From an uncultured Tolumonas sp. (GTDB lineage Bacteria; Pseudomonadota; Gammaproteobacteria; Enterobacterales; Aeromonadaceae): 64,000 nucleotides of DNA. The notes under the pieces are model-generated. The model made no database searches. It saw only the letters and a program-made list of their open reading frames with translations, and had not been told where the DNA came from. Position 1 is the first letter of the stretch. Every line of letters starts with the position of its first letter. Below are positions 41,862 through 54,279 of this stretch, one piece after another. Where the stretch lies: contig NZ_OY781378.1 of the NCBI RefSeq assembly GCF_963676665.1, forward strand, positions 1,456,001-1,520,000, written 5' to 3'. The position numbers were made by a program, and so were the translations under genes.

Positions 41862-42857
41862 TTAGTTTGACATTAAGCGTTTGATGTTCTCTTTGTAATA
41901 AGCGTTCATTAAATCTTTTTGCTCATCAGACATCCGAGATCCAAGTGCGGCGATATCTTTGATTATGTCGCCAAGCTCTTGCCGTGTTATCGAAATCTCC
42001 ATTCGCTTCTTATAATCCAGCAACAGATCTGCGATTTCATCAGGTTCTTCGAAAGCCGCTTGGTCAGTAACTACTGGCTCTACATCGACAATGTTATTTT
42101 CTTTCCCTGCACTTCGAGTGGCTTGTCGTGCGGCTTCGGCTTTTTCTCTTGCCTTCTGCATGCTGTCTTTTGCATCGTCATCAAGAGGGTTCAGATCTCG
42201 CTCTTCCAGCTCATCAACGGTGTAAACACCCATGATCACGTCAGGTGCATATAGCCGCGACCAGCGCTTAATTCCGAGGTATGCAAGTTGTTGCTGTGGG
42301 TCATCAGCCCACAGTGTTGAGTTGCGAGTTAACGCCTGACTTAGCGTTAACTTTCTCTCTTTGACCTCCCCAGATGGCAGAACGGCTGAAACTGTAACAC
42401 CGCAACCAAATTCATCTGACGGGGTCCAGTCTGGAACGCGGTAATACGATTTTTTGCCATCCTTTTCAGTTGGAATGGCTTTTGTTTTGCCTATTACCTT
42501 TTCCCAAGGGCCAAAGAATTCATAACTGAATCGGCCTTTGATTACCCCTGAGTTTACGATTACCGCATTAACAAGTTGGGCCTCATAACCAAGAGTGCCC
42601 TTAACCAGATGTGTCTTTTGCGCTACTGCAAAAGGGTTCATCCCCCATTGCATTGCTTGCAGGCAGATAGCAAAGCAATCGGCTGGCTTATCGCGTAAAT
42701 GCTCTGGGGTAGATACTCGGCCATTCGAAAGCATGTTTGCTATGCGTTCAATATTTGCCATTGCTGTCTCATTCATCATCAATGAGAGCATAGACACTTG
42801 ACCTTTTTGGTTTGCAACCACTTCATTTTGAGCTGGCAATGTAGCTATGTTGTTCAT
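41862..42857 (-). CDS. recT: RecT-family single-strand annealing protein
   Basis: This 331-residue phage recombinase pairs complementary single strands. RecT blocks include HLVKGTLGYEAQLVNAVI, the region around FGCGVTVSAVLPSGEV, and LAYLGIKRWSRLYAPDVIMG. The C-terminal 90 residues are charged and more variable. It is preceded by AAGGAG and lies immediately downstream of the RecE-like nuclease, as in Rac. Confidence 0.88.
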   Translation of the reverse strand: MNNIATLPAQNEVVANQKGQVSMLSLMMNETAMANIERIANMLSNGRVSTPEHLRDKPADCFAICLQAMQWGMNPFAVAQKTHLVKGTLGYEAQLVNAVIVNSGVIKGRFSYEFFGPWEKVIGKTKAIPTEKDGKKSYYRVPDWTPSDEFGCGVTVSAVLPSGEVKERKLTLSQALTRNSTLWADDPQQQLAYLGIKRWSRLYAPDVIMGVYTVDELEERDLNPLDDDAKDSMQKAREKAEAARQATRSAGKENNIVDVEPVVTDQAAFEEPDEIADLLLDYKKRMEISITRQELGDIIKDIAALGSRMSDEQKDLMNAYYKENIKRLMSN

Positions 42858-42868
42858 GATGGCGCTCC

Positions 42869-44275
42869 TTAAAAGAAGATGCTTTCTGGCAGTTCAACTT
42901 GTTGCTCATCTGGTTCAGGTTTGGATTGATCATCAAACGCCTCACCCTTAAGTAATGCCTCTTCACGAGCCACCTGATATTGAGGAATTGAAGCCTCGTT
43001 TATCCCGTCATACCCAGGGTAATAGCCATCATTCCGCCATTTAACGATCTGGCGAATGACGTAATCGCGTAACTTAAGCCCGCGATCAACGTCTTGCTGT
43101 CGCCAGTAATGAACTGCCACCAGGATTGGTTTAAAAGCCTCTTTACCTAATGGGGCGTCCTTCTCCACACAAATGAACGGCATTGATATGTGCTTTCCGG
43201 TTAACTGATAGTAACCATCGGCATAGTGGGCATGCTGAATGTGATAGTTATGGCCACCACCATCACGCTCGAAAGCTGGACGGCTTACATCCCGTAAAAA
43301 CTTAAGGTCTGGTGCCAGTGCATTCTCTTCATCTAACCAGTCAAAACGGCATTTAAGCAGTTCGCCTGTTTCTTCGTGATTCCAGTAACAAGAGACTTCA
43401 CTTTTACCGGTTGTCAGTAGGATTGCCGCTTCTGGATGAGCAAGAACTGCATCACGAATACGCAACGCATGGGTATATTCATCTTCCGTCAGGATGTCTT
43501 TTCCTTGGCTGAACTGCTCTTCTTTCCATGCGTCCAGCCACTCATCTGCAAACACAACGCCCGGCTTAAAGCTCCGTATCCGCTCTTTCATTTCTTCAAT
43601 CTTGCCGGATAGCGGGAATGGTTCTGGCATTTGACGTACTTTTTCTGCAATTGATGCGGCTTCCGGATCAGTAATTTTTGCAACATTGTCCAGTAGAGCG
43701 CTATAGCTACCGGTCGTCTTTAGTTGCTCAGGAAGGGTTGCGTTGTATTCCTTAATGCGGGCTTTAAAGGCAGCGGCAGTGCGTTTTTCACCTTCTGCTA
43801 TTTTTTGAAATTCAGCAGGCAATTGCAGATAGTTGGCTTCTGTTTCGGATATTGAACTGCCCATTCCGATTGGCTGTTTTAAAGAGGCGTTGAATTCAGC
43901 AATCAACGCGATCAAGTCATCAGCAGATGGTTTTTCTGGAAGTGACAAATTGTATTTTTCAATTTCACTTTTCAGTGATTCGCTACCACCACCAATACAC
44001 TCATCAGGAATTTTTGGAGTTACAGAAAACTCACTCTCGAAATCATCAAACTCAAGGACGATTTTGTGGAGTATTTTCCCTTCACGAAACACTGCGGTTT
44101 CTTTCTGCACGTTTTCATCTATGGAGTAATACTCATACAGTCGAGCAAGTTTAAGCGCCCAATCCATTTGCGACTTTGAAATGCCGGGGCCAGAGTGATA
44201 ATCATGGTTTGTAATGTTTGAATAGATGCCTAGTTGCGGTTTTTCCGGCAGGCTTGTTTCTGCAATAGCATTCAT
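42869..44275 (-). CDS. RecE-like PD-(D/E)xK exonuclease
   Basis: This 468-residue protein has the nuclease core in its C-terminal half. Likely catalytic elements are GKILHKIVLEF early on, and then LLKCRFDWLDEENALAPDLKFL (D...DxK type) with YHIQHAHYADGYY. The N-terminal part reads NITNHDYHSGPGISKSQMDW, typical of the phage exodeoxyribonuclease VIII-like family. It would resect double-strand ends to feed RecT. The middle insert (about 90-230) is not recognised. Confidence 0.8.
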   Translation of the reverse strand: MNAIAETSLPEKPQLGIYSNITNHDYHSGPGISKSQMDWALKLARLYEYYSIDENVQKETAVFREGKILHKIVLEFDDFESEFSVTPKIPDECIGGGSESLKSEIEKYNLSLPEKPSADDLIALIAEFNASLKQPIGMGSSISETEANYLQLPAEFQKIAEGEKRTAAAFKARIKEYNATLPEQLKTTGSYSALLDNVAKITDPEAASIAEKVRQMPEPFPLSGKIEEMKERIRSFKPGVVFADEWLDAWKEEQFSQGKDILTEDEYTHALRIRDAVLAHPEAAILLTTGKSEVSCYWNHEETGELLKCRFDWLDEENALAPDLKFLRDVSRPAFERDGGGHNYHIQHAHYADGYYQLTGKHISMPFICVEKDAPLGKEAFKPILVAVHYWRQQDVDRGLKLRDYVIRQIVKWRNDGYYPGYDGINEASIPQYQVAREEALLKGEAFDDQSKPEPDEQQVELPESIFF

Positions 44276-45402: not shown

Positions 45403-47124
45403 TCACGCAGCTTCTTTGTTTAACTTCAGCGTCAATTCAGCAACGCAATCGCGTCCGGATTGTTTGTATGCTTCCGCTGCCGATCCTGAATATTTTTCAT
45501 CAACAGCCTGTTCAAACTTATCCAAAGTATCGAAGAAGCAACCTGCTGCGATTTTGAAGTTTTCATTTATCCAGACTGCAAATATTGTTCTGCTGGAGTA
45601 GCCGCAGTTTTCGCGGAATGCGACATTGGTGATGCCGGTGCAACCGCGCATGTAGAACGAGCCGTTAACAGTCAGGTTATCCGGGATACTGGTGATGCCG
45701 GTGCAACCGCTGATGTCGAACCAGCCGTTAACAGTCAGGTTATCCGGGATACTGGTGATGCCGGTGCAACCGCGCATGTAGAACGAGCCGTTAACAGTCA
45801 GGTTATCCGGGATACTGGTGATGCCGGTGCAACCGCGCATGTAGAACGAGCCGTTAACAGTCAGGTTATCCGGGATACTGGTGATGCCGGTGCAACCGCT
45901 GATGTCGAACCAGCCGTTAACAGTCAGGTTATCCGGGATACTGGTGATGCCGGTGCAACCGCGCATGTAGAACGAGCCGTTAACAGTCAGGTTATCCGGG
46001 ATACTGGTGATGCCGGTGCAACCGCGCATGTAGAACGAGCCGTTAACAGTCAGGTTATCCGGGATACTGGTGATGCCGGTGCAACCGCTGATGTCGAACC
46101 AGCCGTTAACAGTCAGGTTATCCGGGATACTGGTGATGCCGGTGCAACCGCGCATGTAGAACGAGCCGTTAACAGTCAGGTTATCCGGGATACTGGTGAT
46201 GCCGGTGCAACCGCTGATGTCGAACCAGCCGTTAACAGTCAGGTTATCCGGGATACTGGTGATGCCGGTGCAACCGCGCATGTAGAACGAGCCGTTAACA
46301 GTCAGGTTATCCGGGATACTGGTGATGCCGGTGCAACCGCGCATGTAGAACGAGCCGTTAACAGTCAGGTTATCCGGGATACTGGTGATGCCGGTGCAAC
46401 CGCTGATGTCGAACCAGCCGTTAACAGTCAGGTTATCCGGGATACTGGTGATGCCGGTGCAACCGCGCATGTAGAACGAGCCGTTAACAGTCAGGTTATC
46501 CGGGATACTGGTGATGCCGGTGCAACCGCTGATGTCGAACCAGCCGTTAACAGTCAGGTTATCCGGGATACTGGTGATGCCGGTGCAACCGCGCATGTAG
46601 AACGAGCCGTTAACAGTCAGGTTATCCGGGATACTGGTGATGCCGGTGCAACCGCGCATGTAGAACGAGCCGTTAACAGTCAGGTTATCCGGGATACTGG
46701 TGATGCCGGTGCAACCGCTGATGTCGAACCAGCCGTTAACAGTCAGGTTATCCGGGATACTGGTGATGCCGGTGCAACCGCGCATGTAGAACGAGCCGTT
46801 AACAGTCAGGTTATCCGGGATACTGGTGATGCCGGTGCAACCGCTGATGTCGAACCAGCCGTTAACAGTCAGGTTATCCGGGATACTGGTGATGCCGGTG
46901 CAACCGCTGATGTCGAACCAGCCGTTAACAGTCAGGTTATCCGGGATACTGGTGATGCCGGTGCAACCGCTGATGTCGAACGAGCCGTTAACAGTCAGGT
47001 TATCCGGGATACTGGTGATGCCGGTGCAACCGCTGATGTCGAACGAGCCGTTAACAGTCAGGTTATTGCCATTCAATTCATATTCAACGCATTCGCGCTT
47101 AAGCAATTTAATAAATTCGTTCAT
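45403..47124 (-). CDS. Tandem 21-residue LRR-like repeat protein
   Basis: This 573-residue protein has a 21-residue N-cap (MNEFIKLLKRECVEYELNGN), then 23 copies of a 21-residue unit LTVNGxFxxxGCTGITSIPD, then a C-terminal domain of about 70 residues (NCGYSSRTIFAVWINENFKI). The unit resembles bacterial leucine-rich repeats (LxV...IS.C.GITSIP) and should stack as a solenoid with a Cys ladder. Three unit types differ in the variable face: SFDIS, WFDIS and SFYMR. It starts at ATG 47124 after GGAGAT. It lies early in the pL operon. Function unknown; protein binding is the likely use of such a surface. Confidence 0.75.
   Translation of the reverse strand: MNEFIKLLKRECVEYELNGNNLTVNGSFDISGCTGITSIPDNLTVNGSFDISGCTGITSIPDNLTVNGWFDISGCTGITSIPDNLTVNGWFDISGCTGITSIPDNLTVNGSFYMRGCTGITSIPDNLTVNGWFDISGCTGITSIPDNLTVNGSFYMRGCTGITSIPDNLTVNGSFYMRGCTGITSIPDNLTVNGWFDISGCTGITSIPDNLTVNGSFYMRGCTGITSIPDNLTVNGWFDISGCTGITSIPDNLTVNGSFYMRGCTGITSIPDNLTVNGSFYMRGCTGITSIPDNLTVNGWFDISGCTGITSIPDNLTVNGSFYMRGCTGITSIPDNLTVNGWFDISGCTGITSIPDNLTVNGSFYMRGCTGITSIPDNLTVNGSFYMRGCTGITSIPDNLTVNGWFDISGCTGITSIPDNLTVNGSFYMRGCTGITSIPDNLTVNGSFYMRGCTGITSIPDNLTVNGWFDISGCTGITSIPDNLTVNGSFYMRGCTGITNVAFRENCGYSSRTIFAVWINENFKIAAGCFFDTLDKFEQAVDEKYSGSAAEAYKQSGRDCVAELTLKLNKEAA
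45628..47061 (-). repeat. Array of 23 tandem 63-bp coding repeats
   Basis: Units are nearly identical in DNA outside the codons for the variable positions. Reading from the N-terminus the unit types are S S W W Y W Y Y W Y W Y Y W Y W Y Y W Y Y W Y (with one further W placed so that units 3, 4, 6, 9, 11, 14, 16, 19 and 22 are W). Units 4-8, 9-13 and 14-18 repeat the same five-unit pattern (W Y W Y Y, 315 bp). Confidence 0.9.
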
Positions 47125-47197
47125 CGGGATCTCCAAAAAGAAGCCCGGATGAACCGGGCAAAACACATGGGATAAAACTGGTTGATAGGTACGAGCT

Positions 47198-51098: not shown

Positions 51099-51128
51099 TG
51101 ATGTATAGGTAAACATGAGGCTTGTTTG

Positions 51129-51353
51129 ATGAACCGATTAGCAGAAAAACGAAACACACTGAATATCAGCCAAGACGCACTCGCTAAACATTTAGGGTGG
51201 CGTCAATCAAGAATTGGTAACTACGAAGCTGGTAGAACACCGTCTCTTTGTGACTGCAGAAAAATAGTCTCAGCCCTAAATAGCCTTGGATGTAAATGCA
51301 CCATTGATGACGTGTTCCCACCATCAGAGCAAGAAATCAACAACGCAGCTTAA
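51129..51353 (+). CDS. Cro-like repressor
   Basis: This 74-residue HTH protein has ISQDALAKHLGWRQSRIGNY (about 13-32). The recognition helix GWRQSRIGNYEAG is nearly the same as that of the CI-like protein (GWGQSRVGNYERG), so both should read the same operators. ATG 51129 is used rather than the TTG just before. Confidence 0.82.
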   Translation: MNRLAEKRNTLNISQDALAKHLGWRQSRIGNYEAGRTPSLCDCRKIVSALNSLGCKCTIDDVFPPSEQEINNAA

Positions 51354-51404: not shown

Positions 51405-51863
51405 ATGGACTCAAAGCGCGAAGCAATCGCACGAATTGTTGAAGATTTCCCCGGCGGTAAAGAAGCGGCTGCTGCTGTGCTTGGAATGAACGTTACCAAA
51501 TTCAATAACCATCAGTACGAATGCAAAGGCACAAGACCACTGGATGAAGGCCAGATCTTCCATCTTGAACAAGTTGCAGGCACCAGTCATTACGCAGATT
51601 ACATTGCGAAGATGTACGGCGGCGTGTTTGTGCAGAAACAGAACGAAGAAGACATCGACCGCGTGGCGATTGAATCAATGCTGATGGATTTATGTGCGGG
51701 ATATGGCCAGCTGCATATCACTGTTTCAGAAGCGACTAATGATGGCGTTATAAGCCAGAAAGAAGAAAACCTAATCAACGCAAGGCGCGACCAGTTTATA
51801 GCGACACTGCACAAATACTTGGACAGTCAAAAAGCGCTGTATCGCCGTGAGCGGAAAAAATAA
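51405..51863 (+). CDS. YmfL/CII-like phage regulator
   Basis: This 152-residue protein has an N-terminal HTH-like region VEDFPGGKEAAAAVLGMNVT and FNNHQYECKGTRPLDEGQIF, the pattern of YmfL-type regulators. LEQVAGTSHYADYIAKMYGG follows. In position it matches CII of lambda, just after cro. The C-terminal half is helical. Confidence 0.7.
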   Translation: MDSKREAIARIVEDFPGGKEAAAAVLGMNVTKFNNHQYECKGTRPLDEGQIFHLEQVAGTSHYADYIAKMYGGVFVQKQNEEDIDRVAIESMLMDLCAGYGQLHITVSEATNDGVISQKEENLINARRDQFIATLHKYLDSQKALYRRERKK

Positions 51864-52865: not shown

Positions 52866-53194
52866 GATATGTGTCAAGAGAAGCGCAGATATTGGATTTT
52901 GCGCAAGCATCCGCAAGCGTTCTGCATTTAGAAAATCTCATCAAGGTTGTGAGAGATGAATACAGAAGCGCAGTTAGAACATATCTACGCGACGTAAATG
53001 ATTTATGGAATTTCAGTCGTAAAGACGTAATTGACGCACTTGATGACCCAGAATTTCAACTGGCTACTGGCAAGTTATACAGAGAGCTATTAGCTGTAAA
53101 AAAAGAACTTAAAAACGCAAGAAGACGCTTACATACCAGATACCTAAGCCTTCCGGCAGGATTCAAAACTAGCTGCTTACAGGAGGCTGTATGA
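52862..53194 (+). CDS. Hypothetical phage protein
   Basis: This 110-residue basic helical protein (QASASVLHLENLIKVVRDEY) is coupled at both ends (52862 and 53191). No family recognised. Its place directly ahead of the replication gene suggests a helper role, which is only positional inference. Confidence 0.55.
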   Translation: MRYVSREAQILDFAQASASVLHLENLIKVVRDEYRSAVRTYLRDVNDLWNFSRKDVIDALDDPEFQLATGKLYRELLAVKKELKNARRRLHTRYLSLPAGFKTSCLQEAV

Positions 53195-54279
53195 ATACCG
53201 TAGTTCAGTTATTTCCAACACAACAGGGTGAGCCACCTGTGCGGGAGGTTTTCAGTAATGTTATGAGCAATAAAAAAACGGGATGCTATTTGACGCACAG
53301 ATCGCTCTATAAGAACGACTGGGCCGATGACGTGTACGTGCTTGCCCTGTTTCATAGAATGCTGTCTCAAGCCGCCTCAAAGCCTACATCGGTTAATTTT
53401 CATGACCGACAATGGGATCTTGAGCGTGGTGAGCTGGTTATTATTCCAAGCGAAATGGGTTTGCGCATGAAAGACCGAAACAAGAAGCCAACATCGCGTG
53501 ATGCAGTCGTGCGTATGCTGAAACTTCTGGAGCGGGAAAACGTAATTTCCACTCACGGAACTGACAAAGGCACTGTTGTTAAATTCATCAATTATGATGC
53601 ATATCAGACATTAAATAGCTCCAATCAGGGCGCACAACCATCCGCACAGCTACCCGCACAACTACCCGCACAACGCAAACCCAGTAATGGCGCGGCCTGC
53701 GAGGGTGATACCGCACAACCACCCGCACAACCCGCCGCACAGCTACCCGCACAAGAAGAACAAGTTTCTATTAACAATATAAAACAAGATCAAGATCTAA
53801 AGATTTATGGTCAGAGAACGGCTGACGCCATTCCAGACCCTGAGCAGGCAAAACAAAAAATCCCATCTGATGCGGTTATTCACTCCAAGCAGGGAAAAAC
53901 ACTGCGATGGGGAAACCAAGAAGATCTGACTGCCGCAAACTGGTTTATCGAAACCAGAGCCAAGGCATTCACAGCCAAGGGGCTTGCAGTGCCAAAGCCG
54001 CCCGAATTGATTAAATGGGTTAACGATATTCGCCTGACGCGACAGCACGACAACCGAACCCACCGTGAAATCTGTGAGCTGTTCTCGTGGGTTTGCAAAA
54101 CAGGGCGTGAACTTGAGTTTTGCCAAGCACCTGCAAAAATCCGCGGAAAATGGGACGAGTTGCAACTCAAAAAAGCCAACGCCGAACGTGGGGTGACAGG
54201 AAACCAGCGCCAACAACCAATACGCCAAAATGGATTTACCCACACTGGCGAACCATCTTGCACAGTTGGGAAGATCTAG
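53191..54279 (+). CDS. Phage replication protein O-like
   Basis: In this 362-residue protein the N-terminal half resembles the winged-helix region of phage replication initiators (GCYLTHRSLYKNDWADDVYV, RDAVVRMLKLLERENVIS). A Gln/Pro/Ala linker (SAQLPAQLPAQ, AQPPAQPAAQLPAQ) is encoded by two arrays of 12-bp repeats. The C-terminal part (ANWFIETRAKAFTAKGL) resembles the loader-binding end of O or DnaT-like proteins. The dnaC and dnaB genes follow. Confidence 0.75.
   Translation: MNTVVQLFPTQQGEPPVREVFSNVMSNKKTGCYLTHRSLYKNDWADDVYVLALFHRMLSQAASKPTSVNFHDRQWDLERGELVIIPSEMGLRMKDRNKKPTSRDAVVRMLKLLERENVISTHGTDKGTVVKFINYDAYQTLNSSNQGAQPSAQLPAQLPAQRKPSNGAACEGDTAQPPAQPAAQLPAQEEQVSINNIKQDQDLKIYGQRTADAIPDPEQAKQKIPSDAVIHSKQGKTLRWGNQEDLTAANWFIETRAKAFTAKGLAVPKPPELIKWVNDIRLTRQHDNRTHREICELFSWVCKTGRELEFCQAPAKIRGKWDELQLKKANAERGVTGNQRQQPIRQNGFTHTGEPSCTVGKI
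53631..53753 (+). repeat. Two arrays of four 12-bp iterons, putative phage replication origin
   Basis: CGCACA recurs exactly every 12 bp at 53631, 53643, 53655 and 53667, and again at 53712, 53724, 53736 and 53748. The consensus unit is about ACCCGCACAACT. An AT-rich tract (53764-53815, TTTCTATTAACAATATAAAA and on) follows. Iterons inside the O gene next to an AT-rich region are how lambda lays out its origin. Confidence 0.65.

Follow-up and report, generated by a model that had tools for sequence, protein, structure and literature searches.

Leucine-rich repeats (LRRs) with a diverse concave face occur in the immunity of vertebrates and plants; the variable lymphocyte receptors of lampreys and the LRRs of plant NLR proteins are diverse on their strand residues. 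TAL effectors are likewise built of near-identical repeats that differ at few residues and vary in number and order. Here we describe a gene with an array of 23 LRR-like units in a 64,000-nucleotide stretch of the genome of an uncultured Tolumonas sp. (the window; assembly GCF_963676665.1, contig NZ_OY781378.1, positions 1,456,001 to 1,520,000), which belongs to a family of early phage genes. It shares with the lamprey and plant proteins a general LRR likeness only, the plant receptor RPP1 being its top structural match, and no cassette assembly or immune role is shown for the window array; from TAL effectors it differs in fold and in their having a DNA target.

Variable near-identical repeats in prophage genes have been described before: HyvI and HyvII (LasAI/LasAII) from prophages of Candidatus Liberibacter asiaticus contain as many as 12 near-identical repeats within the gene, which are termed LRRs in that paper and are inserted or deleted among samples (PMC3708911). 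The passages on these genes in that paper describe a 44-aa repeat, which is of other sequence than the window units, and autotransporter proteins, and do not mention a strand-residue alphabet. The closest described genes, gene 47 of Edwardsiella phage Edno5 and ORF-54 of Edwardsiella phage GF-2, have the same N-terminal cap (N-cap), LRR units and early-region position as the window gene, and C-terminal domains 74% and 66% identical to that of its product, but differ in having few units (247 and 130 aa, respectively). Gene 47 was proposed to encode an IpaH-like ubiquitin ligase, and the passages on it in PMC6372524 do not mention array variation.

The window gene consists of the following parts:

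45403..47124, minus strand: LRR-array gene, 573 aa from the MNEF start (open reading frame and start codon with GGAGA just upstream)
47065..47124, minus strand: N-cap MNEFIKLLKRECVEYELNGN, helix 2-10 and then a strand (similar N-caps in relatives; AlphaFold2)
45616..47064, minus strand: 23 tandem 63-bp units of three types, which differ in the strand residues S/W, D/Y and S/R and in I/M
45931..46875, minus strand: three identical consecutive 315-bp blocks (WYWYY), units 4-18
45403..45633, minus strand: conserved C-terminal domain, three or four strands and then two helices, without a curated family

The open reading frame, the listing of units and TRF (period 63, 22.9 copies, 95% matches) agree with an initial annotation, made from the sequence alone, in a 573-aa gene with 23 near-identical units, each of 21 aa. 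Named after their strand motifs (S for SFDIS, W for WFDIS, Y for SFYMR), the units follow each other from N to C as S S W W Y W Y Y W Y W Y Y W Y W Y Y W Y Y W Y, that is, from unit 4 on as WYWYY three times and then WYY and WY, exactly as first read. The differences, which had been assigned to two surface spots, have to be described otherwise: four nucleotides vary among units 1-22 (unit positions 20, 25, 30 and 31), all four change a residue (S/W, D/Y, I/M and S/R, respectively) and give three variable strand residues plus the I/M exchange, and there are no synonymous differences. Unit 23 is of the Y type and its 3' end already overlaps the C-terminal domain.

The exact period-5 stretch from unit 4 comprises 17 units (p = 0.0026, 5000 shuffles of the unit order), which supports the earlier suggestion that the window array grew by multi-unit blocks; autocorrelation and longest-repeated-block tests of the unit order gave p values of 0.01-0.05. 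The suggestion that the S units form the older edge of the array found no support: the fixed edges in relatives are the N-cap and the last strand, which reads SLYL in 27 of 36. Since SFDIS is equal to the 5' part of a Y unit joined to the 3' part of a W unit, the S type could be a recombinant. Short reads are unable to order three exact 315-bp copies, and the true number of units might thus differ from 23; we consider such an assembly artefact very unlikely, given that the array is embedded in a contig of 1.6 Mb from the 4.2-Mb, 23-contig genome and that the same kind of array is present in closed Escherichia coli chromosomes. A whole-genome search found one real copy of the gene, the second match being an overlapping echo with 21 stops.

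Relatives of the window protein were united in a family defined in the present analysis (Edno5 gp47-like phage LRR), with members in prophages of Tolumonas, Edwardsiella and E. coli and in viral contigs. Its mark in the C-terminal domain, RENCGxSSRTIFA..AAGCFF..VD.KY, is present in the window protein, as is the second family trait, an N-cap and array encoded between repressor and recombination genes. Uncut phage-type members have the layout N-cap, LRR units, C-terminal domain, the exceptions being loci L036 and L027. Six loci were set aside as duplicates (L001, L002, L005, L046, L047 and L006, which overlaps L008 and comes from a contig of the same length), and 65 (the window, L003, L004, L007-L045 and L048-L070) entered parsing. 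Thirty six of them were parsed; the unparsed ones are L004, L007, L027, L035, L038, L044 and all 23 from L048 to L070. L038 has the length of GF-2 and probably represents one phage together with L004.

Twenty four of the 36 parsed arrays had at least three comparable units (the other 12 had fewer) and were used to locate the variation within the unit. Residue variation was seen in 57 of 72 site-by-array cells at three strand positions (x of xLxLx) and in 37 of 409 elsewhere, while synonymous variation was seen in four cells at the three positions and in 49 elsewhere (Fisher test, 7e-11; this and the following p-value are guides, the positions having been chosen after viewing the sequences, and are optimistic because the arrays share ancestry). 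The pattern held without the diverged arrays L013, L042 and L043 (48 of 63 versus 11 of 358) and with one array from each of 10 groups (25 of 30 versus 32 of 171, with p = 1.7e-4 for replacements against synonymous changes). The variable residues alternate along the strand. In each of three E. coli arrays all three strand positions vary, the numbers of other variable positions being 3, 0 and 0.

The residues at the three positions come from a small alphabet across the family, mostly S/W/Y/G, D/Y/H and R/E/S, with the favoured codons TCG/TGG/TAC/GGG, GAC/TAC/CAC and CGC/GAA/AGC, respectively; the window array uses TCG/TGG, GAC/TAC and AGC/CGC, despite its unit of 21 rather than 20 residues. The change from CGC to GAA needs three substitutions and intermediate codons are few, which suggests that ready-made units are spread by recombination. 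The changes (TCG/TGG, GAC/TAC, CGC/GAA/AGC) do not show the adenine-directed variation expected in a target of a diversity-generating retroelement.

Unit number and unit types differ among relatives, even where the adjoining DNA is identical. One regular expression applied to 40 arrays gave 1 to 23 units (it misses the first unit adjoining the N-cap, giving 22 in the window, and this unit was added by hand; the numbers for L016, L032, L034, L040, L041 and L045, which are cut by a contig end, are lower bounds). Another genome assigned to the same species carries an allele of 131 aa with nearly the same upstream leader sequence; as its units differ from those of the window, this allele did not arise by collapse of the window array. 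Two viral contigs, L024 and L026, show 100% identity in 300 bp of upstream DNA and 75 bp of the N-cap and again in the last 231 bp of the gene and 150 bp beyond, and have six units (WDE WDE SYR SYR SDE SYR) and four units (WDR WDR WDR SYR), respectively, with one type shared; at greater distance from the gene they diverge, identity being 93-98% in some of the aligned stretches. L020 and L026, with 17 and four units, are 99.7% and 97.1% identical in the adjoining DNA. In closed E. coli chromosomes there is one unit in A34, six in LHM10-1 and in CP52E, nine in ET791 and 15 in ET846, where a block of six units (360 bp) is duplicated in tandem, the copies differing by one mismatch at the first base (p = 0.0004). 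These comparisons support the initial expectation that copy number differs among relatives.

Such turnover could also be that of a neutral minisatellite, which merely expands and contracts, its variable residues lying exposed under weak constraint and any function residing in the C-terminal domain. The range of 1 to 23 units, the persistence of one-unit members and the good conservation of the C-terminal domain agree with this explanation, but the ratio of replacement to synonymous variation of 57:4 at the three positions versus 37:49 elsewhere, the small recurring alphabet with favoured codons and the three-change step from CGC to GAA do not, and the in-frame N-cap is kept in 29 of the 30 parsed arrays uncut by a contig end (L036 being the exception); we regard a neutral array as unlikely. 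Wide length variation with fixed ends would also suit a structural or regulatory phage protein in which the array is a length ruler or scaffold and no variable recogniser. This is improbable, since a ruler leaves the strand-specific replacements unexplained and the gene has an early-region location.

The window protein is predicted to fold as an LRR solenoid. The AlphaFold2 model, made with 24 aligned family members (pLDDT 88.7, pTM 0.74; selected members, 24 and 15 in number, made up the alignments for structure prediction), begins with a helix, continues as a regular solenoid whose strands fall on the FDI/FYMR part of the units, and ends in strands and two helices; the predicted strands 154-157, 175-178 and 259-262 are, by our count, the FYMR of units 7, 8 and 12. 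A Foldseek search of the model against PDB placed the LRR domain of the plant receptor RPP1 first (E 2.8e-8), followed by TLR8, LGR5 and the flagellar-motor LRR protein 8z5u. Pfam LRR_5 matched with 48 bits (cut-off 27.7); QueF, DUF7786 and PDR_CDR, also above the Pfam cut-off, were taken as repeat-driven chance matches. Together with the length of the unit (21 aa, within the range of 20-29) and its LxLxx(N/T)xL-type strand, the LRR_5 match and the predicted solenoid assign the repeats to the LRRs, so that the structure predictions bear out the LRR-like reading of the initial annotation. In LRR geometry each x of xLxLx points to the concave side, where the three variable residues are probably exposed.

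The closest solved sequence to the family profile is the LRR protein of PDB 8z5u/8z5w/8z60 (E 1e-23; 8z5u is of the polar flagellar motor), its match being confined to the LRR part and its units diverged. A short model with the C-terminal domain had no PDB match below E 1 by Foldseek (best E 1.1), and in BFVD one 179-aa viral protein matched it (E 8e-12).

In sequence the LRR part is similar to SlrP, SspH1 and IpaH7.8, in fold to SspH1, and some of the host bacteria are animal-associated. These features would suit a lysogenic-conversion effector directed at an animal host, namely an LRR ubiquitin ligase such as IpaH or SspH. Against such an effector stand the lack of any NEL match when the window protein and three relatives were scanned with Pfam at E up to 1, NCBIfam effector models that match via the LRR and far below the cut-off, a C-terminal domain without a significant solved match, the early-region position and the presence of a relative in a Tolumonas metagenome-assembled genome (MAG); we hold an effector to be extremely unlikely. 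The IpaH-like reading put forward for the Edno5 homologue in the passages on gene 47 (PMC6372524) is likewise unsupported, as these scans gave no catalytic (NEL) domain.

The genes around the array are those of an early phage region:

50337..51002, minus strand: CI-like repressor, upstream of the LRR gene and on the same strand (phrog_4, E 3.7e-29)
51126..51353, plus strand: Cro-like repressor, divergent (phrog_3, E 3.1e-9)
51405..51863, plus strand: CII-like activator (phrog_101, E 1.5e-26)
42869..44275, minus strand: exonuclease VIII (RecE-like), downstream of the LRR gene (phrog_412, E 4.2e-61)
41862..42857, minus strand: RecT-like annealing protein (phrog_561, E 3.9e-88)
47143..47159, minus strand: terminator-like hairpin with a T-run, immediately before the LRR gene's ribosome site (pattern scan)

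The position of the LRR gene is the leftward early region of lambda-like phages. The GF-2 homologue lies between annotated N and CIII genes (Edwardsiella phage), the Edno5 homologue between CI and exonuclease VIII/RecT, and in four of the five E. coli chromosomes the gene lies between a repressor and an exonuclease, a Sak4-like ATPase and other replication and recombination genes (PHROG names taken from one of the chromosomes), while in the fifth, A34, it adjoins excisionase and integrase. Of 41 loci, 26 have more than 2.5 kb on both sides, and in 17 of these the clustering of neighbours placed a CI-like gene upstream of the LRR gene and a cluster of recombination genes downstream. These repressor and recombination neighbours corroborate the early-gene position proposed for the window gene. 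No neighbour gene was common to most of the 41 loci; the commonest ones on the same strand were the exonuclease cluster downstream (11 loci) and a DUF1482-like small protein upstream (nine loci). The hairpin at 47143-47159 is placed as if expression of the LRR gene needed read-through or antitermination; terminator-like sites in the region are not above shuffles in the pattern scan (6 versus a mean of 8.1). Directly upstream of the LRR gene of GF-2, ORF-55 (L004:4798-5844), annotated as a collagen-like protein, is another repeat-type protein in the same early slot.

A fixed backbone, switching aromatic and charged strand residues and changing number and order of units are what is expected of a modular binding face under diversifying use. 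We consider it on balance probable that the window gene encodes a cytoplasmic early-phage recognition protein, used early in infection, whose surface is rewired by recombination in the array and whose most likely target is a protein, of the host or of a rival element, that differs from host to host. The 23 LRRs would stack into a curved solenoid, and each would point three alternating strand residues, drawn from the small alphabet, to the concave face. Recombination between units, sometimes in multi-unit blocks, would alter the repeat number and the order of the surface residues, the backbone, N-cap and C-terminal domain staying fixed, and the phage lineage could thereby sample new binding faces without new point mutations. 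The face may bind the variable host or rival-element protein and the C-terminal domain may carry out or anchor the action. The early slot of lambda-like phages holds host- and exclusion-directed genes (ral, sieB), which makes a host or rival-element target the best guess.

Several observations weigh against a recognition protein. Besides the shared ancestry of the arrays, the Foldseek TM-scores are low (best 0.36, query-normalised), and members with one or two units offer little concave face. The order of tandem blocks was significant (p < 0.05) in only two of 15 arrays tested, and the prophages of LHM10-1, from a pig in China, and CP52E, from a human in Thailand, share 10,237 bp without a difference, the array among them, so that turnover there is not faster than divergence of the flanks can show. 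The two-sided repressor and recombination context was not seen in nine of the 26 loci. The C-terminal domain has no significant solved match by sequence (best E 0.66) and no curated family in Pfam, NCBIfam or PADLOC, and no target, partner gene or phenotype was found.

More tentatively, and less likely than not, the gene could be a phage counterpart of the variable lymphocyte receptors, with a three-residue recognition word per repeat, a fixed alphabet and block-recombined arrays, perhaps helped by the adjoining RecET or Sak4 genes; it would then be a general swappable reader aimed at a fast-changing protein of host defence or of a rival phage. As regards known anti-phage defence, no PADLOC model matches the C-terminal domain or the full-length relative L014.

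Among the papers listed by literature searches we recognised none that reports such array variation, with its combination of an early phage gene family, block turnover and a three-residue alphabet common to the members. If the surface binds, the phage gene would encode an LRR binder diversified by nature, whose copy number, order and residue alphabet can be read from DNA, and would connect the shuffling of repeats with phage-host conflict in a testable way. The alleles naturally present in closed chromosomes of E. coli, with 1, 6, 9 and 15 units, are ready material for finding the target.

The C-terminal domain (a query of 77 residues) matched two of 75 genomes of the host family and 11 of 394 genomes of the host order, the window's own included in both counts, five of 5426 E. 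coli genomes and four of 50,697 phage records, which represent two phages; three Sodalis plasmid records matched weakly. Two scans of viral contigs with this domain gave 32 distinct loci, and a conserved-peptide scan of a species-genome collection gave six. The domain of the window protein is 66-87% identical to those of GF-2, Edno5 and the relative in the Tolumonas MAG. With the full-length window query, viral contigs gave two pattern matches, neither of them a relative, and a 39-base pattern of the window unit had no exact match in them. PHROGs yielded for the C-terminal domain weak matches to groups of unknown function only (best phrog_20532, E 2.7e-4). The group phrog_7964, sought in 21 genomes, matched at its positions 63-224 of 269 and was not used, because matches were also found in seven of 14 control genomes.

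Nine of the 11 positive genomes of the order belong to one genus with genomes of 2.3-2.8 Mb and diverged LRR units; some of these genomes have several such genes, some of the proteins have leader-like N-termini, and these relatives were kept out of the counts. The relatives L054, L055 and L059 of genus g46 have two or three modules of LRR and C-terminal domain per open frame, and some relatives of this genus (among L054, L055, L059 and L066) have a hydrophobic leader-like N-terminus and further such genes beside them. The frame of the relative is interrupted in L063 and open in the genomes of L064 and L065. The short relative on the Sodalis plasmid pSG3 (L007:3179-3540; N-cap, one unit and C-terminal domain) has an in-frame stop in the N-cap and is remnant-like. 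On the chromosome of E. coli ET846 (NZ_CP100895.1) a second place matches the C-terminal domain. Elsewhere in the window, two 12-bp repeat tracts at 53631-53754 encode QLPAQ/AQPPAQ-like repeats inside a 362-aa open reading frame (53191-54279, plus strand).
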